A DNA stretch of 32,339 nucleotides from Desulfosporosinus sp. (GTDB lineage: Bacteria > Campylobacterota > Campylobacteria > Campylobacterales > Arcobacteraceae), in the NCBI GenBank assembly GCA_020719775.1, contig DYPS01000026.1:1-32339 (forward strand). The letters are read 5' to 3'. The translations under genes and the position numbers were made by a program. Below the pieces are notes generated by a model, which had not been told where the DNA came from, did no database searches, and was given only the letters and a program-made list of their open reading frames with translations. Shown here piece after piece: positions 4,183-30,048 of this stretch (positions are counted from its first letter, which is position 1; each line of letters begins with the position of its first letter).

Positions 4183-4186
<4 letters not shown>
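3137..4186 (+). CDS. Divergent GAPDH-family dehydrogenase, possibly erythrose-4-phosphate dehydrogenase-like
   Basis: A second GAPDH-fold protein (349 residues) sits between pgk and tpiA and overlaps both (TAATG and ATGA). It keeps the Rossmann motif NGIGRIGKS (6-14), Cys147 (SSCNAS), His174 (TIHPLLNHQ), RVPTPTVG and WYDNEYGYA. The canonical SCTTN reads SCNAS, however, and the SxTGAA phosphate loop reads SKTTTIEA. Several features recall Epd/GapB-type enzymes: AINE in place of the NAD-site ND, the THPSS loop, IHxxxNxQ and IIPxKT. Epd oxidises erythrose-4-phosphate in the DXP-dependent vitamin B6 route. The substrate is not proven; it could equally be a specialised or weakened GAPDH. The family is certain and the function open. 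Confidence 0.8.
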
Positions 4187-5764
<1,578 letters not shown>

Positions 5765-5766
5765 AA

Positions 5767-6975
5767 ATGTCTATAGATTTTAAAGAATTAGCTACGAAAT
5801 ATGGAACACCATACTATGTGTATGATTTCGACCATATCACAAACCAATACAATGAACTCAAAAGTGCTTTTAAAGCTAGAAAATCACTTATCTCTTATGC
5901 TGTAAAATCAAATTCAAATTTAAGCGTAATTAAACATCTTGGAAATCTCGGAAGTGGGGCTGATTGTGTAAGTATCGGAGAAGTCAGAAGAGCTTTAATG
6001 GCAGGAATTCCAAAATATAAAATCATCTTTAGTGGTGTTGGTAAAACTGATGACGAAATCAGAGAAGCAATCAATGCTGATATTTTGATGATAAATCTTG
6101 AAAGCGAAGCGGAGTTCGAAAGAGTTGAGCTTATAGCAAAAGAGATTGGAAAAAAAACCAGAATAAGTATTCGAGTCAATCCAAATGTTGATCCACAAAC
6201 TCATCCATATATCTCAACAGGCTTACATGAAAATAAATTTGGGGTAGATTTAGATACAGCAAAAAGAATGTACATCAAGGCCAAAAGAAGCGAAGTTATA
6301 GAGCCAACCGGAATCCATTGTCATATCGGTAGCCAATTAACAGAGCTTTCACCTATCAAAGAAGCTATAAATATCGTTGCAAATTTGGTACGAAATCTTA
6401 AATCGGCCCTTAATATTGAACTTAGTTTTTTCGATGTAGGTGGTGGACTTGGCATAGTTTATAAAGATGAGACACTCATTAATACTTATGAATATGCTCA
6501 AACTATTTTAGACGCGATACATGGCCTTGATATCACAATAGTCTGCGAACCTGGACGATTTATAGTTGGAAATAGTGGTATCTTTGTCACAAAAGTTTTG
6601 TATGAAAAAATTAATGGAAAAAAAAGATTTATCATTGTTGATGGAGCTATGAATGATCTTATTCGACCGAGTCTTTATAATGCTTACCATAAAATTGAAG
6701 TATTAGAACGAACTGAAAATATAAGTGATTGTAATGTTGTTGGACCTGTTTGTGAAAGTGGTGATTTTTTTGGAAAAAATATCCAATTACCGCTTACAGA
6801 ACATAATGATTTAATAGCAATTTATAGTACTGGAGCATATGGATTTACGATGTCTAGCAATTATAATACTAGAGGACGAGTTGTTGAAATTGCTTTGGAA
6901 AATGGAAAAAATAGAATTATTAGAAAAAGAGAAACTTTTGAAGATTTAATCGCTTTGGAAAAAGAGTATCTTTAA
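5767..6975 (+). CDS. lysA: Diaminopimelate decarboxylase
   Basis: LysA is a PLP enzyme that decarboxylates meso-diaminopimelate to lysine. The 402-residue protein has the PLP lysine Lys47 in SYAVKSNSN, the dimer and phosphate motifs HCHIGSQ (185-191) and GGGLGI, and EPGRFIVGNSG (261-271). It also has the catalytic-site Cys329 in GPVCESGDFF donated across the dimer, and YGFTMSSNYN near the end. All key residues are present. It starts two bases after fabI and precedes pheA and hisC, the order known from Campylobacter. Confidence 0.97.
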   Translation: MSIDFKELATKYGTPYYVYDFDHITNQYNELKSAFKARKSLISYAVKSNSNLSVIKHLGNLGSGADCVSIGEVRRALMAGIPKYKIIFSGVGKTDDEIREAINADILMINLESEAEFERVELIAKEIGKKTRISIRVNPNVDPQTHPYISTGLHENKFGVDLDTAKRMYIKAKRSEVIEPTGIHCHIGSQLTELSPIKEAINIVANLVRNLKSALNIELSFFDVGGGLGIVYKDETLINTYEYAQTILDAIHGLDITIVCEPGRFIVGNSGIFVTKVLYEKINGKKRFIIVDGAMNDLIRPSLYNAYHKIEVLERTENISDCNVVGPVCESGDFFGKNIQLPLTEHNDLIAIYSTGAYGFTMSSNYNTRGRVVEIALENGKNRIIRKRETFEDLIALEKEYL

Positions 6976-6998
6976 TAGATTTAAGTCTAGGAAATAGT

Positions 6999-8078
6999 AT
7001 GAATAAAGAAAAAGAACTTCAAGCTTTAAGAGATACTTTAGATAGTATCGATGATAAAATTTTAGATTTACTAAATGAGAGGATGAAGACCGTTCATAAA
7101 GTTGGAGCAGTAAAAGCAAAAAGTGGTGGTGCTATTTACCGGCCAGAACGAGAGAAATCTATTATTACACGACTTACAAAAAAATCTACTAACACAAATG
7201 GTCTTTTAAATAAATCGGCTATCGAAGCTTTATTTTTAGAAATTTTTGCAATTAGTAGAAATTTGGAATTACCTGAAAATATTGCTTATCTTGGGCCAGA
7301 GGGAAGTTTTACCCATCAAGCTGCTGAAAGTCGTTTTGGAGCAATGAGTTCTTATCTTGCATTAGGAAGCATCAAAGGTGTTTTTAGAGAAGTTGCGAAT
7401 GGAAAAGCAAAATTTGGTGTGATTCCCATTGAAAACAGTAGTAATGGGATAGTGAGTGACACTATCACTTGTTTTGGAGACTATGATCTTAAAATCATAG
7501 CAGAAGTGATGATTGATATTCATCATACTTTTGCTTCTACTATGGATAAAGTAAAAGATATCAAAAAAATATATTCAAAAGATATAGCCTTTGACCAATG
7601 CCGTAAATTTTTAGAAGATTTTGGACTTCTTGAGTGTGAACTTATCCCAGTTGAAAGTACAGCAAAAGCTGCAAAACTTGCTATGAATGAACCAAATAGT
7701 GCAGCGATTTGTTCTCATGTTGGAGCGAAAATGTACAATTTACCGATTTTGTTTGAAAATATTGAAGATACAGGGAATAATCGAACAAGATTTTTAATTA
7801 TTTCTGATTTTGAAAATGGGGAAAGTGGTGACGATAAAACTTCCATTCTCGTGCAACTATCAAATGAAGCTGGTGCATTAGTGAAGTTTTTAAATGTTTT
7901 TGATAGAGAAGGGATAAATCTTACAAAAATAAAATCCCATATAGTTGAAGGTGTATCTACATTCTTTTTAGAGTTCAATGCTCATAAAGATGACCAAAGA
8001 GTACAAAATATTTTTAATAGATTTCCAAATGAAATAAAATTTTTGGGAAGTTATGTGAGGGAAGCAGATGATATTTAA
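6999..8078 (+). CDS. pheA: Bifunctional chorismate mutase / prephenate dehydratase (P-protein)
   Basis: The protein (359 residues) converts chorismate to prephenate and then phenylpyruvate for phenylalanine synthesis. Residues about 5-90 form an AroQ chorismate mutase domain ([24 protein letters not shown]). About 93-270 is the prephenate dehydratase domain, starting [13 protein letters not shown] and containing the catalytic TRF at 263-265. About 280-355 is an ACT regulatory domain. The ACT domain keeps GALV (292-295), but the usual ESRP motif, needed for phenylalanine binding in characterised enzymes, reads KSHI (312-315). Feedback control may therefore differ. Its end overlaps hisC by 11 nt. 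Confidence 0.95.
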
Positions 8079-9162
8079 TAAAAGTTTAGACAATGTAAGT
8101 ATTTATGAGGCGGGGAAACCTATAGAATTAGTAGTAAGAGAATATGGAATTCAACCGCACGAAATAGTAAAGCTAGCCTCAAATGAAAATCCGTATGGAA
8201 CTTGTGATGCTGTGGCTGATGTGATAGCGCGAAAAGCGATTAGTGCTTTTGTTTATCCAGATGATAGTATGTATGAACTCAAAGAAGCACTTGCTACAAA
8301 ATATGAAGTGACAAGCCAAAATATCGTAATTGGGGCTGGAAGTGACCAAGTGATAGAGTTTTGTATCCATGCAAAATGTCATACAGGTAGCAAAGTTTTG
8401 ATGGCAAAAACAACCTTTGCTATGTATGAAATTTATGCAAAACAAGTGGGCGCAACTATTCTTAAAACTCCAAGTGATGCTCACAATCTGGATGAATTTA
8501 GAGAGATCTATAAAAAAGAGGGTGCGGATATTATTTTCCTTTGTTTACCAAATAATCCTCTTGGAGAATGCCTTGATGCCAAAGATGTGTATGCTTTTTT
8601 AGATGAGGTTGATAGTAATACTTTAGTAATACTTGATGGTGCTTACCAAGAGTTTGCTAGTTATAAAGATGGTGCAAAAAAGATTACTCCAAATGAAGTG
8701 ATAGCGAAGTATCCAAATGTGATCTATCTTGGAACTTTTTCAAAAGCATATGGACTTGGCGGAATGAGGGTAGGATATGGGATATCAAATAGTGAAATTA
8801 TTAGTGTATTACATAAAGTAAGACCACCTTTTAATATCACAACATTGTCCCTTGCGGGTGCTATTGAAGCTTTAAAACATGAATCATTTGTAACTATGGG
8901 GATAGAGAAAAACTTTAGTGAAATGAAACGATATGAAGAATATGCAACATCTAAAGGGTTAAGATTTATCCCATCGTATACAAATTTTATCACTATTTAT
9001 ATGGATGGATATATTTCAAAAGAGGTAGCTTTAGAGCTATTAAAAAAAGGGATTATTGTAAGAGATATGACTAGTTACGGATTTAATGCGATACGAATCA
9101 CCATTGGAAAAGTTGACCAAAATACAAAAGTATTTAAAGCACTTGATACTATTTTAGGCTAA
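8068..9162 (+). CDS. hisC: Histidinol-phosphate aminotransferase
   Basis: HisC is a PLP aminotransferase that makes histidinol phosphate from imidazole-acetol phosphate and glutamate; many homologues also act on aromatic keto acids, which fits its coupling to pheA. The 364-residue product has the substrate loop LASNENPYG (37-45), PNNPLG (161-166), DGAYQEF (190-196) and the PLP lysine Lys226 in [16 protein letters not shown]. The ATG overlaps the end of pheA and has GAGGGA just upstream. Confidence 0.95.
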
Positions 9163-9165
9163 AAA

Positions 9166-9609
9166 TTGATAGAAAAATATTATTATGGGTATGATGAGTT
9201 TAGAGTTGATGTCAATCAAATAGCTTCAAAAGTTAAAAATGAAAACTTTGAAGCTATTATTGGAATAGCAAGAGGTGGGCTTCTCTTAACTCAATTTTTA
9301 GCGATAAAACTAAATCTTCGAGATGTGTTTACCATAAACTCAATACTTTATGATGATATGACAAAAAAAGAGAGTGGGGTTGTTTTTAATATTCCAGATT
9401 TAAGCAACTATAAAAAGGTGCTTATCGCTGATGATATAGTCGATAGTGGAGAAACTATGAAAAATATTTTGGAAGTTTTACAAGAAAAATTCCCAAATAT
9501 CGAATTTAAAATAGCTAGTTTGTTTTATAAAAAAACAGCATTGATACAACCAGATTTTATGGAAAAAGAAGCAACAGCATGGGTAGATTTTTTTTGGGAA
9601 GTTGATTAG
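9166..9609 (+). CDS. Phosphoribosyltransferase family protein (purine PRTase-like)
   Basis: This is a 147-residue type I phosphoribosyltransferase fold. The PRPP-binding signature VLIADDIVDSGETM spans residues 85-98, and the pyrophosphate loop IGIARGGLL is at 32-40. The short size and the C-terminal WVDFFWE (an aromatic base-stacking position) resemble xanthine/hypoxanthine-guanine PRTases of the Gpt group. The base specificity cannot be decided. The only start in frame is TTG at 9166, with a weak AGG upstream; the next in-frame ATG would remove the pyrophosphate loop. It is packed between hisC and dxs. Confidence 0.85.
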   Translation: MIEKYYYGYDEFRVDVNQIASKVKNENFEAIIGIARGGLLLTQFLAIKLNLRDVFTINSILYDDMTKKESGVVFNIPDLSNYKKVLIADDIVDSGETMKNILEVLQEKFPNIEFKIASLFYKKTALIQPDFMEKEATAWVDFFWEVD

Positions 9610-9615
9610 GAAAAA

Positions 9616-11427
9616 ATGATAGATATAAAAAATAAAACAACGAAAGAGCTAGAAACAATAGCTGGGGATATCAGAAATCGTATCATAGATGTGGTTTCAA
9701 GAAATGGTGGACACTTTAGTTCTACTTTAGGAGCTGTTGAGCTCACTATTGGAATGCACAAAGTGTTTGATAGCACAAATGATCCTTTTATTTTTGATGT
9801 TTCTCATCAATGTTATCCACACAAACTTATCACGGAAAGATGGGAAGAGTTCGAAACAATTAGACAATTTGGTGGACTTAGCGGATTTACAAAACCAAAA
9901 GAATCCCCTTATGATTATTTTGTAGCGGGTCATGCTTCAACAAGTATTTCACTGGCTGTTGGTGCAGCCAAAGCAAATAAACTAAGTGGCGGTTCAAAAG
10001 TTCCTGTTGTGATGATAGGGGATGGAAGTATGACCGCTGGGATGGTTTATGAAGCTATGAATGAGCTAGGAGATTTAAAACTTCCAGTCGTTATCATACT
10101 TAATGATAACGAGATGAGTATTGCTAAACCAATAGGAGCTATCAGTAAATATCTTAGCAAACTACTTGCTGGAAAATCTTACCAAGGATTTAAAGAAAGA
10201 GTTGACAAATTTATAAGAAATAATCTTCCAGAAGGTTCCTTGTATCTTGCAAAAAGATTTGAAGAGAGTCTTAAGCTTATCACCCCTGGGATGTTATTTG
10301 AAGAGATGGGGATAGACTATATTGGTCCAATTGACGGGCATGACATAGAAGAGGTTATCGAAACTCTTACTTTAGCTAAAAACTTTGGTAAACCTGTAAT
10401 AGTTCATGCTAGAACAGTTAAAGGGAAAGGGTATCCAATAGCTGAAGGGCAACATGAACATTGGCATGGAGTTGGACCTTTTGATATCAAAACTGGAAAG
10501 TTTGAGAAAAAAGAGGGTGCGAAGTCGGCGACGGCAGTATTTAGCGAGGCACTTTATGAGTTAGCAAAAAAAGATGAAAAAGTGGTCGGTGTAACCGCTG
10601 CTATGCCAAGTGGTACGGGGATAGATAAACTTATGAGTGAATTTCCAAATCGTTTTTGGGATGTAGCAATTGCGGAACAACATGCCGTTACTTCAATGGC
10701 AGCGATGGCAAAAGAGGGATTTAAACCATTTGTAACTATCTATTCTACATTTTTACAAAGGGGATTTGACCAGATTATCCACGATGTTTGTTTAATGAAT
10801 TTAGGGGTAACTTTTGCTATAGATAGAGCTGGAATCGTAGGAGCTGATGGGGAAACACATCAAGGACAATTTGATATAAGTTTTTTAAGATTTTTACCAA
10901 ATATGACACTTGTAGCCCCAAGAGACAGTAGAACTTTAGAGCTTGGTTTAGAGTTTGGGGCAAATTTAGGCTCACCTTGTGCTTTACGATATCCAAGAGG
11001 CGCTTTCAAAGAGTTACCCTATCTGGCTACCCCATTTATCCATGGAAAAGGGGAAGTGTTAAAAACTGGGGCATCAAATATCGCTTTTATAGGATATGGT
11101 GCTGGGGTAAGTCGTGCAATAGATACCGCAAATCTTCTTGATATCGATATTACAATTGTTGATTTACGATTTGTAAAACCACTTGATAAAGAACTTTTAA
11201 CTGAACTCTCAAGGCAAACAAATAAATGGTATATTTTTAGTGATAGCCAAAAACAAGGTGGAGTAGGAAGTGCTATTTTGGAATTTTTAAATGAAACGAA
11301 AATCCAAATTGAGCTCGTTACTTTTGAGTATGAAGATATCTATATCCAACATGGGGATACAAAGCTCTTAGAGGAGGATTTAGGTATCACTCCAAAACAA
11401 TTAGCTACAAAAGTTAAGCTTTCTTAA
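9616..11427 (+). CDS. dxs: 1-deoxy-D-xylulose-5-phosphate synthase
   Basis: Dxs condenses pyruvate and glyceraldehyde-3-phosphate with thiamine diphosphate. Its product feeds the MEP isoprenoid route, thiamine, and PLP synthesis. The 603-residue protein shows SHQCYPHK, AGHASTSIS, and the ThDP/Mg motif GDGSMTAGMVYEAMN ending in NDNEMSI. The central transketolase domain has DRAGIVGADGETHQG, and the C-terminal domain has YPRG. AGGAAAAA precedes the ATG. It draws one substrate directly from the triose block upstream. Confidence 0.97.
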   Translation: MIDIKNKTTKELETIAGDIRNRIIDVVSRNGGHFSSTLGAVELTIGMHKVFDSTNDPFIFDVSHQCYPHKLITERWEEFETIRQFGGLSGFTKPKESPYDYFVAGHASTSISLAVGAAKANKLSGGSKVPVVMIGDGSMTAGMVYEAMNELGDLKLPVVIILNDNEMSIAKPIGAISKYLSKLLAGKSYQGFKERVDKFIRNNLPEGSLYLAKRFEESLKLITPGMLFEEMGIDYIGPIDGHDIEEVIETLTLAKNFGKPVIVHARTVKGKGYPIAEGQHEHWHGVGPFDIKTGKFEKKEGAKSATAVFSEALYELAKKDEKVVGVTAAMPSGTGIDKLMSEFPNRFWDVAIAEQHAVTSMAAMAKEGFKPFVTIYSTFLQRGFDQIIHDVCLMNLGVTFAIDRAGIVGADGETHQGQFDISFLRFLPNMTLVAPRDSRTLELGLEFGANLGSPCALRYPRGAFKELPYLATPFIHGKGEVLKTGASNIAFIGYGAGVSRAIDTANLLDIDITIVDLRFVKPLDKELLTELSRQTNKWYIFSDSQKQGGVGSAILEFLNETKIQIELVTFEYEDIYIQHGDTKLLEEDLGITPKQLATKVKLS

Positions 11428-11449
11428 TATAAAAATAAAAGGGCAATAA

Positions 11450-12379
11450 ATGAAAAAAATAATAGTTTTACTTAATATGGGTGGACCAAATAATTTAGAT
11501 GAAGTAAAACTATTCCTCACAAATATGTTTAATGACAAATATATTATAGGAGCTCCTCAACCGATAAGAGCGATGATAGCTTGGCTTATTACAACACTTA
11601 GAGAAAAAGAGGCAAAACATAACTACTCGTTACTTGGGGGAATCTCACCAATAGTAGGACATACAAAAAGATTAGTACAACAACTTAAAAAAGAGCTAAA
11701 TACTGATGTTTTTTATGTGATGCGATACACTCCGCCATTTGCAGATGATATTATGGAAAACTTGTGTAAATATGATGAAATATTTGCTTTTCCGATGTAT
11801 CCCCACTATTCACAAACAACTACAAAATCCTCCATGGAAGACTTTATGGAATCAGCTAAAAAATATGGGATTGAAGAAAAAATCAAAACAATCGATAGCT
11901 ATTATGACAATGAACTCTATAATAAAGCGATAGTTGAAAGGATCAAACAAGCGATGGATGGAGTTGATACAAAAGAGTATGACCTTATCTTTTCAGCTCA
12001 TGGGCTTACTCAAAAAGTGATAGACAAAGGAGATTTGTACCAAAAACATATCTTAGCAAATGCAGAAGCAACAAAAAAAGAACTTCAAAAAGAGGGGATA
12101 GAGTTTAATAATATTCACCTCGCTTACCAGTCACGACTTGGACCTATGAAGTGGTTACGACCTTATATGAGCGATAAATTAACTGAATTTAAAGACAAAA
12201 AAGTGTTAATCTATCCCATTTCATTTACAGTTGATAACTCTGAAACTGAATATGAACTTGATATTGAATATCGAGAATTAGCTGATAAAATTGGAATAGC
12301 TGACTACAAGGTAGCAAAAGCTCCAAATCATCATCCCTATTTTATAGAGATGATAAAACAAAAATGGGAAGAAAATTAA
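11450..12379 (+). CDS. hemH: Ferrochelatase
   Basis: HemH inserts ferrous iron into protoporphyrin IX, the last step of protohaem synthesis, at the membrane surface. The 309-residue protein starts with the family entry LLNMGGPNNLDEV. The catalytic His184 sits in FSAHGLTQ, and YQSRLGPMKWL and the conserved glutamate in DNSETEYELDIEY (Glu265) are present. An AAGGG ribosome site precedes the ATG. It is the last gene of the long plus-strand run; the next gene has its own promoter. Confidence 0.96.
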   Translation: MKKIIVLLNMGGPNNLDEVKLFLTNMFNDKYIIGAPQPIRAMIAWLITTLREKEAKHNYSLLGGISPIVGHTKRLVQQLKKELNTDVFYVMRYTPPFADDIMENLCKYDEIFAFPMYPHYSQTTTKSSMEDFMESAKKYGIEEKIKTIDSYYDNELYNKAIVERIKQAMDGVDTKEYDLIFSAHGLTQKVIDKGDLYQKHILANAEATKKELQKEGIEFNNIHLAYQSRLGPMKWLRPYMSDKLTEFKDKKVLIYPISFTVDNSETEYELDIEYRELADKIGIADYKVAKAPNHHPYFIEMIKQKWEEN

Positions 12380-12443
12380 AATAAAATCTTCCCTAAACAA
12401 AAACTACCAATCAAATTTTAAATCAAAATAAAATTTTTTTCTG

Positions 12444-12449
12444 TATAAT
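12444..12449 (+). promoter_or_regulatory. -10 box of the proA-fdh-yraN transcript
   Basis: A perfect TATAAT preceded by TG (TGTATAAT, 12442-12449) follows a T-rich run at 12434-12440, the form of Campylobacterota sigma-70 promoters. The GTG of proA starts 28 nt downstream and has GAAAGG in between. Confidence 0.65.
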
Positions 12450-12477
12450 TAACCATTATTGGATAGAAAGGTTATTC

Positions 12478-13710
12478 GTGGAACAATTTTTACAAAGTGC
12501 AAAAAAAGCAAAATCTATCATAGCGACTTTAAGTGGAGAACAAAGAAATAATATACTTCATCAAATGAGTGAAGCTCTCTTGGGAAATGCTCTTTTTATC
12601 ATACGAGAAAATATGAAAGATATCGAGTATGGTCGAATCAACAATCTCTCTCCATCCCTTATGGATAGACTCCTCCTTAACCCTTCAAGGATAGAAGATA
12701 TGGCAAATGCCGTAAAAGAGATAGCCTCACTTAAAGACCCTGTTGGAAGAATTCTTGATGGGTGGGTAACCGAAAATGGACTTTCAATTGAAAAAGTAGC
12801 TGTTCCAATCGGAGTCATTGGTATCATCTATGAAAGTCGTCCAAATGTGACGAGTGATACAGCAGCACTTTGTTTTAAAAGTGGAAATGTTTGCATATTA
12901 AAAGGTGGAAAAGAAGCGGAACATAGCAATAAAGCAATAACTCAAGTATTACAACAAGTGCTTATCACAAACAATCTTCCAGAAGGTATCATCTCTCTTT
13001 TACCAGATAGTAGTCGAGAAGGTGTTGCAAATCTTATCAAACAAGATGCTTATGTTGATTTAATAGTTCCAAGGGGAGGAGAGGCTTTAATACAGTTTGT
13101 AAGTAGAAATTCTTCAGTACCTGTTATCAAACACGACAAAGGACTTTGCCATACCTATATCGATAAATATGCTTCTGAAGAGAAAGCAATCAAAATAGTT
13201 ATCAATGCGAAATGTCAAAGACCAGGTGTTTGTAATTCTCTAGAAACTTTACTTGTGCATAAAGATTTAGCACCATTTGTGTTACCAAAGCTTTATAAAG
13301 AGCTAAAAATTAATGGAACGGAACTTTTTGGATGTCCTAAAACAATGGAGATTATCACAACAAAAGAGGCAACTGAAGAGGACTACAAAACAGAATATTT
13401 AGCAAATATCCTTACTATTAAAATTGTTGCTTCAACAGATGAAGCAATTGAACATATAGAAAAATATGGCTCAGGCCATAGTGAAGCTATTATCTCGGAA
13501 AGCTATACAGAGATACAGAAGTTTTTAAATACAGTCGACAGTGCCTGTGTATATGCAAATGCTTCTACAAGATTTACAGATGGTGGAGCTTTTGGATTTG
13601 GAGCTGAAGTTGGAATCAGTACAAATAAACTCCATGCAAGGGGACCTATGGGAATAAATGAACTTACAACTTACAAATTTAAAATATTGGGAAATGGACA
13701 AACAAGATGA
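12478..13710 (+). CDS. proA: Gamma-glutamyl phosphate reductase
   Basis: ProA reduces gamma-glutamyl phosphate with NADPH in proline synthesis. The 410-residue aldehyde-dehydrogenase-fold protein has YESRPNVTSD (119-128), KSGNVCILKGGKEA, the catalytic Cys252 in QRPGVCNSLET, and TDGGAFGFGAEVGIS followed by HARGPMG. The start is GTG, placed by the ribosome site and by the normal N-terminal length. No proB lies beside it. Its stop overlaps the next gene (ATGA), so it is coupled to the molybdoenzyme, an unexpected pairing. Confidence 0.96.
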   Translation: MEQFLQSAKKAKSIIATLSGEQRNNILHQMSEALLGNALFIIRENMKDIEYGRINNLSPSLMDRLLLNPSRIEDMANAVKEIASLKDPVGRILDGWVTENGLSIEKVAVPIGVIGIIYESRPNVTSDTAALCFKSGNVCILKGGKEAEHSNKAITQVLQQVLITNNLPEGIISLLPDSSREGVANLIKQDAYVDLIVPRGGEALIQFVSRNSSVPVIKHDKGLCHTYIDKYASEEKAIKIVINAKCQRPGVCNSLETLLVHKDLAPFVLPKLYKELKINGTELFGCPKTMEIITTKEATEEDYKTEYLANILTIKIVASTDEAIEHIEKYGSGHSEAIISESYTEIQKFLNTVDSACVYANASTRFTDGGAFGFGAEVGISTNKLHARGPMGINELTTYKFKILGNGQTR

Positions 13711-15788
13711 GTGCTCAAGAGATACAATCAGTTTGCACCTATTGTGGTGTAGGATGTGATATAACAGCCATTGTAGAAAACAATACAATTCAGAAAATCT
13801 ATGCTCAAACGGATGGTTATGTAAGTCGTGGAAAATTATGTGTAAAAGGGAGAACTGGATACCATTTTGTTGCAAGCGAAAACAGAATACGAGATGTGCG
13901 AGTTAAAAAATCTTTCATAGAAAAGAATTTTGCTGATATGCCAAAAGAGTTACAAGCAAGAAGTAAACGGCTTACCCATATCGATGATGTTTGGTATAGT
14001 GTTCCTCATGAATTTGGAACATCATTATGTGCATGGAAACTTGATCGTATTAAAGAAAAATATGGGCGACATTCATTTAGTGCTATGGGGGGTGCACGAA
14101 CTTCTTGTGAAAGTGCTTACTCTTTGCAAAAGTTCGCAAGAACTACAATGGAATCACCAAATATAGATAATTGTGCTAGAGTTTGCCATAGTCCAAGCTT
14201 GAGTGGTATGAGACAAACCATAGGTGAAGGAGCTGCAACTAATCCTTATGATGATATTTTTAAAACAGAATTTATGGTTGTTATGGGTTCGAATACAACT
14301 GAAGCCCATCCAATTGTAGCAAACAGAATGATAGAAGCAGTCAAAGAGAAAACTGCTGAACTTGCTGTAATCGATGTACGACAAATACAACTAAATAAAT
14401 ATGCTTCAATAGAAGCTGTGATCCCATTTGAAGCCAATCTTCTTATTTTAAATATGATGGCGTTCGTTATCATCAAAGAGGAGCTTTATAGTAGAGAATT
14501 TATAGAAGCTAGAACAATTGGTTTTGATAACTATAAACAAAAAATCTTAGATGACAAGTATGCCAATCCAGATTTTTTTAAAACACTCGAAGGATACGAA
14601 GAGTTAGCTGAAATAATCCCTCAAATTGCAAGAAAATATGCTACTAGTAAATCTATGTTTTTTTGGGGACTGGGAATCACTGAGCATCTTGATGGATCAA
14701 AAGCTGTTATGGCTATCACCCATCTTGCGCTTATGACTGGTAATATTGGGAAAGTTGGAGCTGGGCTTATGCCACTTCGTGGACAAAATAATGTTCAAGG
14801 TGCTTGTGATGTAGGATGTTTACCATATTATGACCCAGATTATCAAACGCCAAAAGAGATAGGTCTTATGACACCTGATGCTGTTGATGCAATGATAGAT
14901 GGAAAAATAAAATCACTCTATGTAATGGGGGAAGATTTTACCCATATTCATCCAAATCAAAACAAAGTACATCAAGCTATTTCAAATCTTGAAATCATCA
15001 TCGTTCAAGATCTCTTTATGAATGATATAGCACAAAAAGCAGATGTTGTATTTGGAGTAAAATCAGCCTATGAAAAAACAGGTGTCTATGTCAATGCTAT
15101 GAGAAGATTGCATCTCTCTCAACCACTTGTCCAATGTGATTTGCCAGATGATTGGGAAGTGTTAAGAGATATCGAAAATAAACTCAAAGGGGAAAGCCAT
15201 TTTCAAACACCAGAAGATGTTTGGAATGAGATACGAACTGTAGCTCCACATAGATTTAGTGGTGCGAGTTATCTTAAATTGGCAAAAAATAGAGCGAGAG
15301 GTCTTCAATGGCCAGTAGGTAAAACAGATACCCCTATCTTGCACCTTGAAGATTTCAGAACAAAAGATGGTTTAGGAAGGTTTAAATACCATCAATACAC
15401 CCTGAGAGAGCAAGTCCAAAAAGTACTTCACGATGAGCAAAGAGAGACATTTTATCTTACAACTGGAAGAACGATTGTTCACTACAATAATGGTGCTCAA
15501 ACAGGACAAAGTGAAAAATTACTTGAAAGACATAGTGAAGATGTAATTCAAGTTTCTTTTGAGGATCAAGATAAATTTACAAGTGAAAAAGTAATTCTTA
15601 AAAACAAATATGGTCAAACAAAACCACTTGCAATTAAGTTTGTAAAAACACTCAAAATTGGGACGATGTTTTGTACTTTCCATCATGCTAAATCACATAT
15701 CAACTATATCTTTGGAGATGAAGCAGATGATATTATCAAAACCGCAAGATTTAAATCTGTAGAGGTTGAAGTAGTCCCAGCAATATGA
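13707..15788 (+). CDS. FdhF-like molybdopterin oxidoreductase, probable formate dehydrogenase (Cys type)
   Basis: This is a 693-residue DMSO-reductase-family molybdoenzyme. The N-terminus carries one [4Fe-4S] site (Cys10, Cys13, Cys17, Cys45) with Lys48 after it. NCARVCHSPS places the Mo ligand at Cys160, followed by His161. These match the Sec140-His141 pair of E. coli formate dehydrogenase H, with cysteine instead of selenocysteine. RGQNNVQGACD holds the substrate-site arginine. There is no Tat signal and no N-terminal ferredoxin domain, so it is cytoplasmic with one visible cluster and no obvious partner subunit nearby. Formate is the likely substrate. A different oxidoreductase of the same branch is possible, because the stretch around VVFGVKSAYEKTGVYVNAMR departs from the usual form. 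Confidence 0.8.
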   Translation: MSAQEIQSVCTYCGVGCDITAIVENNTIQKIYAQTDGYVSRGKLCVKGRTGYHFVASENRIRDVRVKKSFIEKNFADMPKELQARSKRLTHIDDVWYSVPHEFGTSLCAWKLDRIKEKYGRHSFSAMGGARTSCESAYSLQKFARTTMESPNIDNCARVCHSPSLSGMRQTIGEGAATNPYDDIFKTEFMVVMGSNTTEAHPIVANRMIEAVKEKTAELAVIDVRQIQLNKYASIEAVIPFEANLLILNMMAFVIIKEELYSREFIEARTIGFDNYKQKILDDKYANPDFFKTLEGYEELAEIIPQIARKYATSKSMFFWGLGITEHLDGSKAVMAITHLALMTGNIGKVGAGLMPLRGQNNVQGACDVGCLPYYDPDYQTPKEIGLMTPDAVDAMIDGKIKSLYVMGEDFTHIHPNQNKVHQAISNLEIIIVQDLFMNDIAQKADVVFGVKSAYEKTGVYVNAMRRLHLSQPLVQCDLPDDWEVLRDIENKLKGESHFQTPEDVWNEIRTVAPHRFSGASYLKLAKNRARGLQWPVGKTDTPILHLEDFRTKDGLGRFKYHQYTLREQVQKVLHDEQRETFYLTTGRTIVHYNNGAQTGQSEKLLERHSEDVIQVSFEDQDKFTSEKVILKNKYGQTKPLAIKFVKTLKIGTMFCTFHHAKSHINYIFGDEADDIIKTARFKSVEVEVVPAI

Positions 15789-17718: not shown

Positions 17719-19815
17719 TTATTCCTTTGTATAATTGTTTAAAATCTCTTCATCACATTTTGGACAATATTCATGCTCTCCACTGATATAGCCATGTTTT
17801 TCACATACTGAAAATATTGGTGTTAATGTAATATAAGGCAACCTAAAATTCTCCAAAACAGCCCTTAAAAACTCTCTTGTTGAGTTAATGCTATGTAATC
17901 TTTCGTTCATATAAAGATGCAGTACAGTACCTCCTGTGTATTTGGTTTGAAACTTATCTTGTTTGAGAAGTGCCTCAAATGGGTCTTGTGTGAAATCTAC
18001 TGGAAGTTGTGAAGAATTGGTATAGTAAATATTTTCCCCTTCACCAGCTTGCAAAATATCTGGGTATCTTTTTTTGTCTTCTTTTGCAAATCTATAGGTT
18101 GTACCTTCAGCTGGGGTTGCTTCAAGATTATAAAGATTACCACTCTTTTCTTGAAATAATTTAATCTTTTCTCGTATAAAATCTAAAACCTCAAGCGCAA
18201 GTGTTTCTCCAAATTGACTACAGATGTCGCTTTTATCACCCGTAAAATTTCGTACCATTTCATTAATTCCATTTACACCGATAGTTGAAAAATGATTATT
18301 AAATCCTTTTAAATACCTTTTTGTATATGGATAAAGTCCATCTTCAAATAGCTTATTGATAGTAATTCTTTTCTTCTCTAAAGTTTCATATGAAAGTTCT
18401 AAAAGTTCTTCTATTCTCTGAAATAATTGTGATTTATTATTTTTATACAAATACCCAAGTCTTGCCATGTTTAATGTAACGACCCCTATGCTTCCTGTCA
18501 TTTCAGCTGAACCAAAAAGACCATTTCCTCTTTTTAGAAGTTCTCGTAAATCAAGTTGTAATCTACAACACATACTTCTTACAGCATTTGGTTTATAAGC
18601 TTCCTCATTTTCTACTTTGTTTCCAGCATCATCTATTTTATATTGACTCCCAATAAAGTTTTGAAAATATGAACTTCCAATTTTTGCACTATTTTCCAAA
18701 AGAACATCAACATTTTCACCATACCAATCAAAATCTTCTGTGATATTTACAGTTGGAATTGGAAAAGTAAATGGCTGTCCTGTTTTATCCCCTTCTGTCA
18801 TAATTTCATAATAAGCTTTGTTTATCAAATCCATTTCAGGTTTAAAATCTTTATAGGTTAATGCTTCAAGACTATCAATTCCTCTACTATTTGCTTTTTG
18901 TAATAATAAATCAAAAGAATTGATATTCTTAAATAGATGAATATCATATCGTGTCGGAATTTGATTTTTTAAATCCTCAGGTACTGTCCAATCTATTGTG
19001 ATATTTGTAAATGGAGACTGTCCCCATCTTGACGGGACATTAAGATTATAAACAAAGCTTCGTATTGCTTTTTTTATCTCACTATAATTCAAATCATCAG
19101 CAAAAACATAAGGTGCAAGATAGGTATCAAATGAACTAAAAGCTTGTGCACCAGCCCATTCACTTTGAAGTATTCCTAAAAAGTTTGCCATTTGTCCTAA
19201 AGCTTCACGAAAGTGTTTAGGAGCATCACTTTCAACTCTTCCACGAACTCCGTTAAATCCTTCATTTAAAAGTTGTCGTAAACTCCATCCAGCACAATAT
19301 CCAGTCAAACAATCAAGGTCATGAATATGGATATCTCCATTTCTATGGGCATAACCTTCCTCTTTTGTATAAACTTTATCAAGCCAGTAGTTTGCTATAA
19401 CTTTTCCAGCAAGATTGTTAACAAGACCAGAATTGGAATAACCAGTATTTGCATTTGCTTTAATTCGCCAATCATTCTTTTGAATATATTCTTCTACACT
19501 TGCTGTTGAATTAACGAAAGTTGTATCTTTCCCAAGCCCTAAGATCTCTTCTCGTTGCATTTTATGCAAAAATCGATAAGTGATAAAAGCTTTTGCAATT
19601 TCAAAATATCCAAAATTAAAGAGTACTTTTTCTATTAAATCCTGTATATTCTCTACTTCAATAATATGTTTTTCAGATAAAGCTTCCAATACAGCTTCGT
19701 AAATTCTTTTATTATATGGTTTATTTTGACTTTTGAAAGCTTTTTTTATAGCATCACTGATTTTATAAGCTTTAAATTCCTCTTTGGAACCATCCCTTTT
19801 GATAATAAATTGCAT
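17719..19815 (-). CDS. nrdD: Anaerobic ribonucleoside-triphosphate reductase, large segment
   Basis: Class III RNR makes deoxynucleotides without oxygen. The ATG at 19815 is preferred: it has AGGGAG upstream and gives the standard start MQFIIKRDGS. The longer frame to 19884 would begin in the FNR box. In the 698 residues, 1-90 are an ATP-cone (allosteric site). Cys169/Cys174 (DCLTGYC) and Cys416/Cys417 (RSMCCRL) line the active site, with the thiyl cysteine expected in the latter. Cys671, His674, Cys684 and Cys687 form the zinc site (CEKHGYISGE, CPKC). The protein then stops, short of the glycyl-radical motif, which lies on the next ORF. Overall it resembles the Thermotoga type (GWSLRQLL, AGAQAFSSFDTY). 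Whether formate or a redoxin is the reductant cannot be told. Confidence 0.95.
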   Translation of the reverse strand: MQFIIKRDGSKEEFKAYKISDAIKKAFKSQNKPYNKRIYEAVLEALSEKHIIEVENIQDLIEKVLFNFGYFEIAKAFITYRFLHKMQREEILGLGKDTTFVNSTASVEEYIQKNDWRIKANANTGYSNSGLVNNLAGKVIANYWLDKVYTKEEGYAHRNGDIHIHDLDCLTGYCAGWSLRQLLNEGFNGVRGRVESDAPKHFREALGQMANFLGILQSEWAGAQAFSSFDTYLAPYVFADDLNYSEIKKAIRSFVYNLNVPSRWGQSPFTNITIDWTVPEDLKNQIPTRYDIHLFKNINSFDLLLQKANSRGIDSLEALTYKDFKPEMDLINKAYYEIMTEGDKTGQPFTFPIPTVNITEDFDWYGENVDVLLENSAKIGSSYFQNFIGSQYKIDDAGNKVENEEAYKPNAVRSMCCRLQLDLRELLKRGNGLFGSAEMTGSIGVVTLNMARLGYLYKNNKSQLFQRIEELLELSYETLEKKRITINKLFEDGLYPYTKRYLKGFNNHFSTIGVNGINEMVRNFTGDKSDICSQFGETLALEVLDFIREKIKLFQEKSGNLYNLEATPAEGTTYRFAKEDKKRYPDILQAGEGENIYYTNSSQLPVDFTQDPFEALLKQDKFQTKYTGGTVLHLYMNERLHSINSTREFLRAVLENFRLPYITLTPIFSVCEKHGYISGEHEYCPKCDEEILNNYTKE

Positions 19816-19841
19816 GAAACTCCCTTTGGAATATTTCGCAT

Positions 19842-19884
19842 ATTCTATCAAATGGAGAGGAGATACAACATTGATCGAGATCAA
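19842..19884 (-). promoter_or_regulatory. nrdD promoter with FNR-type box
   Basis: TTGAT-CGAG-ATCAA (19871-19884) is an exact FNR consensus. On the minus strand TAGAAT (19842-19847) is a -10 candidate. A start near 19836 places the box centre at -41.5, the class II FNR position, leaving a leader of about 20 nt with AGGGAG before the ATG. Anaerobic induction of nrdDG fits this well. Confidence 0.75.
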
Positions 19885-21866: not shown

Positions 21867-26049
<4,183 letters not shown>

Positions 26050-26063
26050 TTAAAATCCTTTTC

Positions 26064-27128
26064 TTATACTATTACTGGCATTATAATTGTTGTAAAATTG
26101 TTGTCTTTAAGAGCAAATGGTAATCTTGTTTCATTAAATCCTATCTCAAACTTTTCACTATTAGAAGTACTTAAAAAGTCAAGAAAATATTTACTATTTA
26201 CTGCGAAATAAAATGGTTCACTTATTTTTAAATTTTCTTCAATTTGTGTTTTAGCTTCACTATCTTCATCTAAACTTTCTAAAACTATATTATTTGGAAA
26301 AAAAGTAATTTTAATATTTGGTTTTAGAGATGTTATAAGTTTAATAGCATCTATAAATTGATTTTTATTTACTGTTACAGTTATTTTAAAATTATTAGGG
26401 AGGATTCTTGTATAATCTGGAAATTTTCCATTAATTAATTTTGTAAAAAATGTATAGTTTTTATTTTTTACTACAAGATTAACATCATCGTATTTTATTT
26501 CACAATCATCAAAAAACAGTTTTTGTATTTCAATGATAGCTTTTTTAGGGATAATAATTTGATTTGATTTATTATTTATATTTTCAATTTTACTAATAGC
26601 TAATCTTCTTGTATCTGTTGCTACAAAATTTATTTTATCTTCTTTAATATCTATTAGAGCACCATTAAGTTCAAATTTTGGATTATTATTATCAATAGCT
26701 GGTGTTATATTTTTAATAGAATTTATAATTTTCATAATATTTATATCAATTAAATGAAGGGTTTTCATATTTGGAAAATCTGGATATTCATTTGCATCAT
26801 ACATAGGTAATTTAAAAGATGTTTTATTTTGTTTAATATGAAGATTATTATTAATAACTTCAAAATTAATATTTTCATTTTTAAGTCGTCTAATTATATT
26901 TAGAAGATTACTACCATTAACTGTAGCTTTTCCATTTTCATAATTTTCAATTTCATTTAAATGAGATAATAAACCCATTTCATAATCTGTCGATTTTAAA
27001 GTTAATGAATCGTTAATGACTTCAATAAAAATATGAGAAGTTATTGCGCTTAGATCCTTTTTTTCTAAAAAAGGTTGCATAGAAGCTATAATTTGTTCAA
27101 ATCTTCCTTTATTTGTGCTAAATTTCAT
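26064..27128 (-). CDS. dnaN: DNA polymerase III subunit beta (sliding clamp)
   Basis: The clamp ring that holds DNA polymerase III on DNA. The 354-residue protein has the three-fold repeat plan of the family: MKFSTNKGRFEQIIASMQPF at the start, FVATDTRRLAISKIE in the middle, and LPFALKDNNFTTIIMPV at the end, a near match to the usual hydrophobic-pocket MPVRL end but finishing MPVIV. It is noticeably richer in Asn and AT-rich codons than gyrB. AAAAAGG precedes the ATG, directly beside the DnaA-trio-like element of the origin. Confidence 0.95.
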   Translation of the reverse strand: MKFSTNKGRFEQIIASMQPFLEKKDLSAITSHIFIEVINDSLTLKSTDYEMGLLSHLNEIENYENGKATVNGSNLLNIIRRLKNENINFEVINNNLHIKQNKTSFKLPMYDANEYPDFPNMKTLHLIDINIMKIINSIKNITPAIDNNNPKFELNGALIDIKEDKINFVATDTRRLAISKIENINNKSNQIIIPKKAIIEIQKLFFDDCEIKYDDVNLVVKNKNYTFFTKLINGKFPDYTRILPNNFKITVTVNKNQFIDAIKLITSLKPNIKITFFPNNIVLESLDEDSEAKTQIEENLKISEPFYFAVNSKYFLDFLSTSNSEKFEIGFNETRLPFALKDNNFTTIIMPVIV

Positions 27129-27155
27129 AGTTTTTCCTTTTTCTATTTTAATTAA

Positions 27156-27267
27156 AAGTAGTAGTGATAGTAGTCTATGTGAATAGATGAAAATAAGTTG
27201 AAAAGGAATTAACCATAGGCTTTTAAGACAGTGAGAAATTCTTTACATTTATTCACATTTATTCACA
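27156..27267. other. oriC: Probable replication origin: DnaA boxes and DnaA-trio-like element between dnaA and dnaN
   Basis: Two perfect TTATTCACA boxes, 10 bp apart (27249-27257, 27259-27267), face one way. A third box (27178-27186; CTATTCACA on the minus strand, one mismatch) faces the other. Directly after that box the minus strand reads CTA-CTA-TCA-CTA-CTA-CTT-TTA (27173 down to 27153) and then an AT-rich run. That is the orientation and spacing of the DnaA-trio unwinding element next to a DnaA box. Box spelling fits Campylobacterota DnaA sites. Strand opening would be expected just before dnaN. Confidence 0.75.
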
Positions 27268-27284
27268 TATTTTTATCAACTCCT

Positions 27285-28598
27285 TTATTTAGTTAGTATT
27301 TTATTTTTTAAATTTTCTAAAATTAATTTAAAATTTTCATCTTTTTCTAATACTTCATTAGCTTTAGAGATATTTTTAGAAACACTTGAATGATCTTTCA
27401 TCCCTAAAAATTTAGCAATATCAGGCATAGAATTGTGAGTTAATTCTCTAGCTAAAAAAATCACAATTCGTCTTGCATTTACTATATTTACAGTTCTTTT
27501 TGATGATTTTAAATCACTTGGTTTTATATTAAGTTCAGTTGCAATTACTTCAATGATATTGGGTAATGTTATATTGTTTTTTTTCTCTTTAATTTGGTCT
27601 TTTAGAAGATTTTTTACTAAATCTAAATCTATTTTTTGACCTAATAAATCAGCACTGGCATTTATTTTTATCAAAAGACCTTCTATTTCTCTAATTGAAC
27701 TATCAAGGGTAGTAGCAATATAATTAATAATCTCTTTCGAAAGATGAATGCCATTTAATTCACTCTTTTTTTCAACAATAGCTATTTTTGTTTCGAGTTC
27801 AGGTAATTGAATATCAGCAGTAAGTCCCCATTCAAATCTGCTTTTGAGTCGTTCTTCAAGCCCTGCGATTTGACTTGGAAGTTTATCACTTGTGAGTATG
27901 ATTTGTTTATTTGCTGTATGTAGCTCATTAAAAGTATGAAAAAATTCTTTTTGTGTTTCCTCTTTCCCACTTAAGAATTGAATATCGTCTATAAGAAGAA
28001 GATCACATTTTCTATACTTATTTCTAAAATGCTCCATGTTTTTATTTTTGAGACTAAAAGTAAAATCGTTCATGAATTGCTCAATTGTTACATAAATTAC
28101 TATCTTATGATTCTCAATAGCGTCATTTCCAATCGCTTGTAAAAGATGAGTTTTTCCAAGTCCAGTGCCACCGTAGATAAATAAGGGATTATATTGTTTT
28201 CCTAAATTTTTAGCTACAGCTTTGGAAGCATTATATGCCATTTGATTTGAACTTCCTACTACAAAAGATTCAAATGTGTAAGATTGGTTAAGAATAGTAT
28301 TTTCTGGGGTATTAACTGATAAATGTTCGTTTATAATATCTTTTTTTGGTCTTCTTTTTTCACCTATTGTTAGTATTTCAATAGATGGTCTTATAGATGT
28401 TTTATTAAAATATAAATCTTGAATAATCGAAGAAAATTTTGTTTTTATAAATGTTGCTATAAATTTATTTGGAACTTCAAAAACAAGTAATTCATCACTT
28501 GAGCTAGCTTTTTTAAAAATAAGCTGCTGAATAAATTTTGTATAGTCTGAGGGAGAAACCTCTTGTTTTAATTCTTCAATAATATTTATTTTTGACAA
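27285..28598 (-). CDS. dnaA: Chromosomal replication initiator protein DnaA
   Basis: DnaA-ATP binds DnaA boxes and melts the origin. The 437-residue protein shows an N-terminal domain (1-80), an unusually short linker, and an AAA+ ATPase with Walker A GGTGLGKTHLL (143-153) and Walker B LLLIDDIQFL (200-209). The C-terminal DNA-binding domain has DHSSVSKNISKA, the base-reading helix signature. DnaA boxes lie on both sides of the gene. Confidence 0.98.
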   Translation of the reverse strand: MSKINIIEELKQEVSPSDYTKFIQQLIFKKASSSDELLVFEVPNKFIATFIKTKFSSIIQDLYFNKTSIRPSIEILTIGEKRRPKKDIINEHLSVNTPENTILNQSYTFESFVVGSSNQMAYNASKAVAKNLGKQYNPLFIYGGTGLGKTHLLQAIGNDAIENHKIVIYVTIEQFMNDFTFSLKNKNMEHFRNKYRKCDLLLIDDIQFLSGKEETQKEFFHTFNELHTANKQIILTSDKLPSQIAGLEERLKSRFEWGLTADIQLPELETKIAIVEKKSELNGIHLSKEIINYIATTLDSSIREIEGLLIKINASADLLGQKIDLDLVKNLLKDQIKEKKNNITLPNIIEVIATELNIKPSDLKSSKRTVNIVNARRIVIFLARELTHNSMPDIAKFLGMKDHSSVSKNISKANEVLEKDENFKLILENLKNKILTK

Positions 28599-28661: not shown

Positions 28662-28706
28662 TGTGAATTATGTGAATAACTTTTTGTGAACTAGTGAAAA
28701 AGTATA
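28662..28706. promoter_or_regulatory. DnaA-box cluster and -10 upstream of dnaA (second origin part / autoregulation)
   Basis: On the minus strand TATACT (28701-28706) is a likely dnaA -10. Just downstream are boxes TAGTTCACA (28685-28693, two mismatches), TTATTCACA (28671-28679, perfect) and TAATTCACA (28662-28670, one mismatch), the last two head to tail without spacing. They cover the expected transcription start, so DnaA could repress its own gene. With the dnaA-dnaN boxes they give the two-part origin layout known in Helicobacter. Confidence 0.6.
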
Positions 28707-28811
28707 AAATAAATTGGGTAGGTATTTTATAAAAAGAGCAGTGGCGTGATTGTAAATAAAAAAATCTCAAGAAGAAAATTTGAATAAGTCGTGAAATATT
28801 TATTATTTTGA

Positions 28812-28824: not shown

Positions 28825-29307
28825 ATGAAAATATTAAGTATTGATCCTGGAACTATTAACTGCGGGTACTCTATTTTGGAAGTTACTAATAAAAAACCAA
28901 AATTAGTGGAAGCTGGACTTATAAAGATGAAATCAAGAATTTTACAAGAACAGATAGTTGAATTTATTGAAGGGCTTGATCTTGTTGTTAAAAATCATAC
29001 TATAAGCGAAGTTGCAATGGAAGATATGTTTTATGCTTTTAACCCAAAGACAGTGATAAAATTGGCTCAATTTAGAGGTGCTATCACCCTAAAGCTTTTA
29101 CAAGATTTTGGAAATTTTTATGAGTATACTCCTTTGCAAGTAAAAAAAGCTGTTACAGGAAATGGAAAAGCCACAAAAGAACAAGTTTCATTTATGGTTA
29201 AAAGATTATTGAATTTAAAAGAAGAGATTAAACCATTTGATGTTACAGATGCGATTGCAGTTGGATTAACTCATGTACAAAGGCTAAATTTCCCAACAGT
29301 AAGATAA
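28825..29307 (+). CDS. ruvC: Crossover junction endodeoxyribonuclease RuvC
   Basis: RuvC cuts Holliday junctions moved by RuvAB. The 160-residue protein has the four acidic residues of the RNase H-like centre: Asp7 (SIDPGT), Glu66 ([13 protein letters not shown]), and Asp139/Asp142 ([11 protein letters not shown]). It also has KLAQFRGA and the DNA-contact loop [21 protein letters not shown] is the standard N-terminus, so the ATG is right although no ribosome site is seen. Divergent from dnaA. Confidence 0.95.
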
Positions 29308-29376: not shown

Positions 29377-30048
29377 TTAATTTAAGTAACTTTCAAAGAG
29401 ATATTTATGATCACTTGGTAATATTCCAAATAAACTTCTAGCTAAATCTTGAATCTCCCATAAAGCACTTTTACTACTTCTAAGCCCTAAGAAGTTTTGT
29501 AAGCTTCTAGCATTGATTGTCCAAGTGAGTTCAGTTTTATAACTCTCTGGTAAGCAGTATTTGGCTCTGTCATTGCTTACCCCATCAACTAGCATAAGGC
29601 GTAAATTTTCTAATGCCGTAATTGAAGAAAAATCAACTCCTAGGATGTCACTCCAAACAAGATATTTACTAGCTCTTATCATATGTTTGTCACTATAAAC
29701 TTCAGTTGGATTTGTGTATTTTTCTTTGAGTTCTATCATCGACATACCATCTGTAAAGCTTTCTTCTTCTTTGAGTTCTTTAAGTGTGTATCTTGTTGAT
29801 TTTACACTTGGGCTCGCCATTCTATGTCTTGCTAACTCTTGCAATAATGCTCGACTTATTCCGCTAATATAAAATGTGTAAGTTAAATGCTCTAGTGTTG
29901 AAGCATGTTTAAATTTATTTCCAACTCTATCGATGAGGTCTTTATCTTTCTCTCCACCATTATCACTTTTATCGTGGCTTGCCCAACAAGTTCGTATAGC
30001 TGTTGCACATACTGTTAAAGATGTGTGTTGTAATAGTTCCACTTTCAT
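29377..30048 (-). CDS. thyX: Flavin-dependent thymidylate synthase ThyX
   Basis: ThyX makes dTMP from dUMP with FAD and methylenetetrahydrofolate, without the TS-type Ser/Cys chemistry of ThyA. The 223-residue protein has the signature RHRX7S: Arg74-His75-Arg76 to Ser84 in RHRMASPSVKSTRY. Substrate-binding positions are in EHLTYTF (53-59) and the C-terminal LQNFLGLRSS. AGGAAAAA precedes the ATG. It is the last gene of the hemD-zinc protein-thyX run and supplies dTTP close to the replication genes. Confidence 0.96.
   Translation of the reverse strand: MKVELLQHTSLTVCATAIRTCWASHDKSDNGGEKDKDLIDRVGNKFKHASTLEHLTYTFYISGISRALLQELARHRMASPSVKSTRYTLKELKEEESFTDGMSMIELKEKYTNPTEVYSDKHMIRASKYLVWSDILGVDFSSITALENLRLMLVDGVSNDRAKYCLPESYKTELTWTINARSLQNFLGLRSSKSALWEIQDLARSLFGILPSDHKYLFESYLN

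Follow-up and report, generated by a model that had tools for sequence, protein, structure and literature searches.

The 156-bp intergenic region between dnaA and dnaN, at positions 27129-27284 of the window (the whole 32,339-nucleotide stretch analyzed here, which is the entire contig C87 of a 2.85 Mb genome in 228 contigs), is very probably oriC2, i.e., the part of a bipartite chromosome origin in which the duplex is unwound, through a DnaA-trio array. This reading draws on sequence, gene context, conservation, box spacing, and GC skew in relatives, and we infer binding, filament formation, melting, and looping from published work on related bacteria. Several observations were counted against it, i.e., the third trio reads TCA, the skew minimum of one same-genus contig (G003:C40) lies away from dnaA, the AT-rich run beside the trios is not unique, 17 of 80 sequences from outside the family could not be placed, and DnaA carries Thr at the position equivalent to I190.

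Results

The closest matches to the DnaA of the window were Arcobacteraceae MAGs (90-92% identity, e.g., JAQUAG010000001.1), and the genome is that of a member of the Arcobacteraceae. Pfam assignments gave the gene order ruvC (28825-29307, plus strand), dnaA (27285-28598, minus strand, with a TTG start in the ORF list), dnaN (26064-27128, minus strand, with its ATG at 27128), and gyrB (23725-26049, minus strand), and ruvC-dnaA-dnaN-gyrB is the order given for the Epsilonproteobacterial origin locus in the consulted part of PMC5043019. Boxes with a TTCAC core flank dnaA on both sides, three in oriC2 and five in oriC1 (28662-28798, minus strand), where all five point in a single direction between dnaA and ruvC. 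These features support a locus of the form ruvC-oriC1-dnaA-oriC2-dnaN-gyrB, with the trio element as its oriC2. Elsewhere in the window, a gene for a ThyX-type thymidylate synthase adjoins ruvC (29377-30048), and an anaerobic ribonucleotide reductase is encoded close to the origin (17719-19884). Transcription of a long block of plus-strand genes (830-15788) runs towards the origin, and GC skew in this block is positive; it contains two GAPDH-like genes flanking pgk, followed by enoyl reductase, decarboxylase, and prephenate dehydratase genes, as well as genes for an aminotransferase, DXP synthase, and a molybdopterin oxidoreductase.

Starting from the dnaA side, oriC2 begins with an opposed pair of DnaA boxes on the plus strand, both TTATTCACA, of which the outer member (27259-27267) has its core 83 bp, and the trio-nearer member (27249-27257) 73 bp, from the core of the trio-proximal box. 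A degenerate middle box, TTTCTCACT (27230-27238, minus strand), follows at a core-to-core distance of 52 bp from the proximal box, and its NTCAC position is kept in relatives. Next comes a minus-strand tandem (27178-27194), in which the weak upstream box ATTTTCATC (27186-27194), with family columns that are almost invariant, shares one base with the strong, trio-proximal box CTATTCACA (27178-27186). After a 4-nt spacer, TAGA (27174-27177), whose final three bases vary, the minus strand reads CTA CTA TCA CTA CTA (27159-27173), i.e., an array of 3'-GAT-5' trios on the plus strand in which trio 3 is deviant. The AT-rich run beyond it (27129-27158; 5 G/C) opens with CTT TTA and is presumed to melt next, so that the full minus-strand triplet run from 27173 to 27153 is CTA CTA TCA CTA CTA CTT TTA. 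A preliminary description had reported a box followed by triplets on the minus strand, and CTATTCACA, TAGA, the triplet run, and AT-rich DNA can be read there directly. Its count of six fitting triplets out of seven is right under a middle-T rule, TCA being the misfit, and the two opposed TTATTCACA boxes that it placed 63-89 bp from CTATTCACA are found on the plus strand at 27249-27267; the TAGA spacer, the weak box ATTTTCATC, the middle box TTTCTCACT, and the oriC1 cluster were absent from it.

A basal unwinding system (BUS) is expected to hold a DnaA box within 16 bp of its trios, and here the spacer after CTATTCACA measures 4 nt. Tandem boxes, one of them weaker, occur in 57% of predicted BUS elements, a single box being found as well, and in the window ATTTTCATC stands beside CTATTCACA in conserved columns. 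The search rule given in PMC8287927 asks for at least three consecutive trios with a conserved middle base. Two good trios run from trio 1 before TCA breaks the series, and a run of the required kind starts at trio 4 (CTA CTA CTT TTA, 13 nt past the box). The least stable 30-bp duplex of the gap lies at 27140-27169; with 682 of the contig's 32,310 30-bp windows equally weak or weaker (the weakest 2-3%), this stretch is not unique, and duplex stability was dropped as a discriminator.

We then compared 195 loci (the window, L002-L058, L083-L119, and L129-L228). For the family, 98 genomes gave a match and 51 were fetched by hand, in addition to loci from other searches for relatives, while for the phylum at least 199 genomes gave a match, of which 30 were taken as loci and 49 were fetched; the weakest phylum matches fell outside those listed, and sampling is therefore thin in some genera whose DnaA has diverged furthest. 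The first 140 nt after dnaA defined 166 unique sequences once L041 and L057, with nothing after dnaA, had been dropped. Four more were set aside (L058, L215, and L228, with no box pair, and L091, a 26% match below the identity cut-off), leaving 82 Arcobacteraceae, anchored by DnaA identity >65% plus L173-L176, and 80 other Campylobacterota. Placing used the box pair and trios 1-2 alone, and succeeded for 82/82 Arcobacteraceae and 63/80 others (145 in total). Among the 17 unplaced sequences (L119, L117, L188, L115, L118, L182, L194, L206, L203, L054, L183, L218, L211, L190, L225, L226, and L223), some, e.g., L117, L115, L118, and L183, have recognizable trios and failed at the first trio only. 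Distant loci from other phyla (L058-L081) were compared by eye. As to the relatives themselves, L002 (CAMCYD010000004.1) is titled a Helicobacter pylori PMSS1 MAG, has a DnaA 92% identical to that of the window, and is probably mislabeled; L038 (JAKZMJ010000030.1), with a DnaA 72% identical, is a MAG titled Sulfurospirillum sp. The same-genus genome G001 (7% contamination) has two dnaA genes, one on G001:C330 (L089, 79% identity) and one on G001:C314 (L090, 57%) that looks like a contaminant.

Comparing the triplets across relatives had been suggested in the preliminary description, and they proved to be kept along with the boxes. Of the 82 Arcobacteraceae, all carry CTA at trio 1, 74 at trio 2, 26 at trio 3, 16 at trio 4, and 75 at trio 5, and in three further sequences the trio-5 CTA lies one base later; elsewhere between +14 and +39, CTA occurred in 1 sequence at +16, 2 at +25, 9 at +36, and 1 at +37. 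Parsimony steps were counted per column on the DnaA tree for 73 of the 82, omitting L129, L093, L162, L161, L160, L165, L040 (a 6-nt spacer in that placing), and L015 and L173 (a +1 shift). Trios 1 to 5 required 0,0,0 / 0,0,4 / 6,4,9 / 6,9,2 / 0,0,1 steps, the tandem box 0-4, the four spacer bases 7, 18, 21, and 15, and the downstream columns 5-17. As expected of a BUS, the triplets are better conserved than their flanks at trios 1, 2, and 5 (0-4 steps vs. 5-17 downstream), with 2-9 steps at trios 3-4, and CTACT was fixed in 73/73 profiled sequences. In the genus of the window (8 unique sequences), trios 1, 2, 4, and 5 were CTA in 8/8, and trio 3 was TCA (3), CCA, CAA, TAA, or ATA (2). By this comparison, the misfit third triplet TCA is a regular feature of the group and reads as an interruption of the array.

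For the middle base on the trio strand, A or C is functional in B. subtilis and G or T is less so (PMC10721633); on the CTA strand, a middle T or G was correspondingly scored as good (o) and C or A as poor (x). A good-interrupted-good array in register was present in 51/82 Arcobacteraceae (oooxo in 39, ooxoo in 11, and ooxxo in 1), with 28/82 uninterrupted and 3/82 ending poor, and the 63 placed sequences from other families comprised 30 uninterrupted, 13 oooxo, and 20 ending poor in that register. In the Arcobacteraceae, 43/82 have a poor middle base at trio 4, 14/82 at trio 3, and 3/82 at trio 5, representing 12, 6, and 2 changes on the tree, respectively, and none of the 82 has one at trios 1 or 2. 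The distal CTA was at +12 in 36/63 and at +13 in 13/63 sequences of other families; over all 145 placed sequences it was at +12 in 111, at +13 in 16, and absent from 18, with 6 register changes. It is missing from 4/82 Arcobacteraceae and 14/63 others, which counts against the generality of a split array. The distance from trio to dnaN ATG, in the 28 other-family sequences listed, was 81-93 nt in seven and 37-46 nt in the remaining 21, and in those seven the distal CTA was still at +12, so that it tracks the boxes rather than dnaN.

Could trio 5 be kept for a protein other than DnaA, within an array that otherwise works as proposed? One example would be a regulator of the HP1021/Cj1509 type, known in H. 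pylori and C. jejuni to bind boxes and DUE; we regard this as unlikely. Trio 5 is conserved like trios 1-2 and unlike trios 3-4, it can sit one base off register (+13 in 16/145), and the Cj1509 sites described in the consulted part of PMC6052347 overlap box 2 and the DUE; against this, TTTCACA, which that paper gives for Cj1509 box 1, is similar to the DnaA boxes and not to CTA. We hypothesize a split mechanism in which the distal CTA would be read by a late DnaA protomer or by another protein. A DnaD-type TnnT at the distal trio was present in 60/79 Arcobacteraceae vs. 55.8 expected, which is unconvincing, and in 33/40 sequences of other families vs. 23.9 expected. PF07261, the DnaD-type domain, was found in 0/104 Arcobacteraceae genomes and was recovered from the B. 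subtilis control. In the window's own genome, HobA is present, and a search of this one genome for DciA returned no match.

On the side of DnaA, the equivalent of N187 (B. subtilis numbering), which contacts the middle adenine of the trio in B. subtilis (PMC10721633), is Asn in 153/162 sequences, including the window. The equivalent of I190, a residue whose change to Ala abolishes opening in B. subtilis (PMC8287927), is Thr in 122/162, again including the window, and Thr is the common state at this position in the phylum sample. The N187 position was changed in 9/162 only, to Ser (4), Thr (4), or Ile (1), in L188, L194, L203, L054, L213, L180, L184, L186, and L212, eight of them in family f3 and one titled Campylobacter. 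Trios are decayed where the residue is Ser or Ile, and not where it is Thr. Coevolution of reader and motif at N187 is possible, and we do not claim a link between N187 changes and decayed trios, as the exceptions lie within one family and represent few independent events.

We also examined the distances between boxes. The opposed pair, GTGAA-N5-GTGAA, was found in 78/82 Arcobacteraceae, its first core being separated from the proximal one by 83 bp in 67 sequences, 82 in 9, 81 in 1, and 72 in 1, and in 36/63 others, at 81-83 bp in 34 and at 103 and 104 bp in two. In the Arcobacteraceae, this length had a SD of 1.3 nt, compared to 8.9 nt from the dnaA stop to the pair (n = 78). From trio to dnaN ATG, the SD was 10.0 (n = 48) due to two values of 92 (L010 and L011, where the start codon is uncertain), the others being 40-47, and this side is also rather constant in the family. 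Between the boxes, mean column identity (middle box excluded) was 41% vs. 29% at random and 94% in box columns, as measured in 66 unique sequences selected for the exact 83-bp spacing, whereas the length counts above are unselected. The middle NTCAC lies at 52 bp in 54/82 and at 51 bp in 7/82 Arcobacteraceae, and at 50 or 51 bp in 32/63 sequences of other families; it is a full TTCAC in just 24 Arcobacteraceae at 51/52 bp. With ~10.5 bp per turn of the DNA helix, the distances of 52, 73, and 83 bp in the window correspond to 5.0, 7.0, and 7.9 turns, and the middle box is 52 - 8 = 44 bp from the upstream tandem box. By sequence, one shared box arrangement was found in 114/145 placed sequences. 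Within the tandem, the strong core adjoins the trios in 76/82 Arcobacteraceae and is the farther one in 39/63 others (20 changes). A conserved hairpin in the box-to-box spacer was considered and rejected, since a dyad in L002 was not general and the best 12 6-bp helices were paired in 45-62% of cells; local dyads (CATTTCGTACGATGAAATG type) also occur in the fixed-length spacer of L010, L011, and L138, with no position shared across the family.

Since the genome of the window is too fragmented for a skew plot, we used relatives instead. In G002:C10 (same genus; 200,000 of 218,828 bases read), the cumulative minimum at 78,772 falls within dnaA (78,564-79,868). In G140, a complete genome of a sister genus, 9/11 sampled 20-kb pieces before 1.21 Mb were negative and 7/8 beyond that point were positive. 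In the piece at its dnaA gene (1,215,159-1,216,457), the running sum was lowest at 1,216,000 (1-kb steps). The minimum of G003:C40 (same genus), by contrast, is at 265,279, ~30 kb from its dnaA (234,643-235,953), where there is merely a shallow local dip. On the skew check named in the preliminary description, two relatives agree with an origin here by turning at dnaA and the third speaks against it; the origin reading is not refuted. Within the window, the skew sign also flips near 17 kb (~17000), along with gene direction.

The displaced minimum in G003:C40, together with the five TTCAC boxes of oriC1, could be taken to mean that the oriC2 boxes serve DnaA-binding control of dnaA/dnaN expression, or DnaA titration, and that opening takes place elsewhere, in oriC1 or another site. 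We consider this very improbable, given that trios are found family-wide at a fixed distance from the box pair, that skew turns at dnaA in the two other genomes, and that opening in vitro, as reported in the consulted part of PMC5043019, was confined to oriC2 in A. butzleri and two other species.

Finally, we asked how far the element exceeds chance, using a composite score built from two box cores at a distance of 8 nt, a spacer of 3-8, and five trios, which was devised once the motif was known and is therefore biased towards it. The oriC2 of the window scored 18.5, a value reached by 0/20,000 dinucleotide shuffles of the gap (maximum 15.9), and neither strand of the window held a second site scoring ≥14. 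The oriC copy topped the list in G003:C40 (292 kb; 18.5, runner-up 14.4) and in G140 (400 kb sampled; 17.1, runner-up 15.3); in G002:C10 (200 kb), the best background site scored 15.1, the oriC of that contig being unscorable at the end of a piece. Loose patterns were not enriched over reversed controls in the window's own genome, with 13 occurrences of TTCACN{3,8}CTACTA vs. 33 for the control and 1 of CTACTANNACTACTA (at oriC2) vs. 3, and were replaced as evidence by the composite score. As simple patterns are weak, conservation is the main evidence. The lack of enrichment of short loose patterns might suggest that the triplets arose by chance, are simple-sequence DNA, or belong to a dnaN promoter. 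This is hardly credible in view of the shuffles, the fixation of CTACT in 73/73, and a distal CTA that stays at +12 in the seven other-family sequences with 81-93 nt to the dnaN ATG.

Discussion

The proposal of a DnaA-trio origin made in the preliminary description is supported by gene context, by relatives, by the composite of boxes and trios in 82/82 Arcobacteraceae, and by skew in two genomes. The trio-contacting Asn kept in DnaA and the presence of HobA also count in its favor. It needs correction in two respects, in that the layout had already been published for Arcobacter butzleri and others (PMC5043019) and that the deviation at trio 3 is normal for the group. Trios have been reported for A. 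butzleri, S. denitrificans, W. succinogenes, and H. pylori, and as degenerate in C. jejuni, in the literature as far as consulted. Because both the DnaA-trio and DnaA-dependent opening of A. butzleri oriC2 are published (PMC5043019), the element in the window is a known kind in a new organism. Arcobacter (Aliarcobacter) butzleri shares with it the family, gene order, TTCAC core, DUE in the dnaA-dnaN gap, DnaA-trio, opposed box arrays, and unidirectional oriC1 boxes (PMC5043019). According to the consulted text of the same paper, in vitro binding revealed one DUE-proximal box and no box arrangement common to the four species, whereas the sequences compared here show an arrangement that recurs at fixed distances across the family, weak tandem box included.

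In H. pylori, where the trio is required for opening, oriC2 likewise has tandem boxes (ts1-ts2), a short spacer, about five trios, and an AT-rich region; it differs in that its five trios are described as perfect YTR, unlike trio 3 (TCA) of the window, and its spacer as GC-rich, where three of four spacer columns vary freely among relatives of the window (PMC8235120, PMC8287927). C. jejuni oriC is alike in its twin proximal boxes with a 1-bp overlap and a DUE in the dnaA-dnaN gap, but is described in the consulted part of PMC6052347 as monopartite with a degenerate trio motif. The BUS/incC of B. subtilis also has tandem boxes that anchor the trios and helically phased distal boxes, the phasing holding in either orientation (PMC6669920). 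Its native box 3 and box 6 lie 44 bp apart in the same direction, the shortest working distance there (PMC6669920), and the middle and tandem boxes of the window are also 44 bp apart, a match that suggests a shared orisome geometry. On the CTA strand, B. subtilis reads CTA CTA TTA CTT CTA CTA (PMC10201434), with CTA at trios 1, 2, and 5 and not at 3-4, and this array follows a less pronounced version of the same rhythm; opening there is slowed by deleting one base and not by deleting three (PMC6669920). The two systems differ in box sequence, in the middle base, which is intact in every B. subtilis trio, and in that the distal motif of B. subtilis is read on the opposite strand by DnaD, a type of domain that we did not detect in any of 104 Arcobacteraceae genomes. 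In the published view, the trios nearest the box are the most strongly conserved and the most required (PMC8287927; PMC10201434), and trios without a middle adenine have already been suspected (PMC8287927). Our search, which covered parts of main texts, found no description of the split trio pattern or of the fixed box distances.

If the oriC2 reading is right, DnaA would bind the TTCAC-core boxes. With the tandem boxes beside the trios as its anchor, a DnaA filament would move onto the plus strand at the 3'-GAT-5' trios (27159-27173) and open the duplex, and melting would spread through the AT-rich run in the direction of dnaN. The upstream boxes, which lie close to whole numbers of helical turns away, would act on the same face and help to load or hold the filament, and oriC1 would probably join by looping. 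A bolder and rather doubtful extension is that Campylobacterota oriC2 is a fixed-geometry machine, in which boxes kept ~5, 7, and 8 turns from the unwinding box, in DNA that has otherwise diverged, feed a split array, trios 1-2 start the filament, and the distal CTA 12 or 13 nt on is read separately, either by a DnaA protomer arriving late, past a skip, or by an opposite-strand helicase-loading factor replacing DnaD.

What is new here is the constraint profile and the box ruler, the kind of element being already known. The relatives turn the statement that trios are conserved into a positional prediction, namely that trios 1, 2, and 5 matter and trios 3-4 are nearly free, and the comparison further predicts that the distances between boxes matter and the intervening sequence does not. 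Were the distal CTA indeed read on the other strand, it would point to a helicase-loading signal in a family with no detected DnaD-type domain. Chromosome opening in this Arcobacter-like bacterium most likely starts in the oriC2 gap, which provides a precise melting-site prediction for an Arcobacteraceae lineage.
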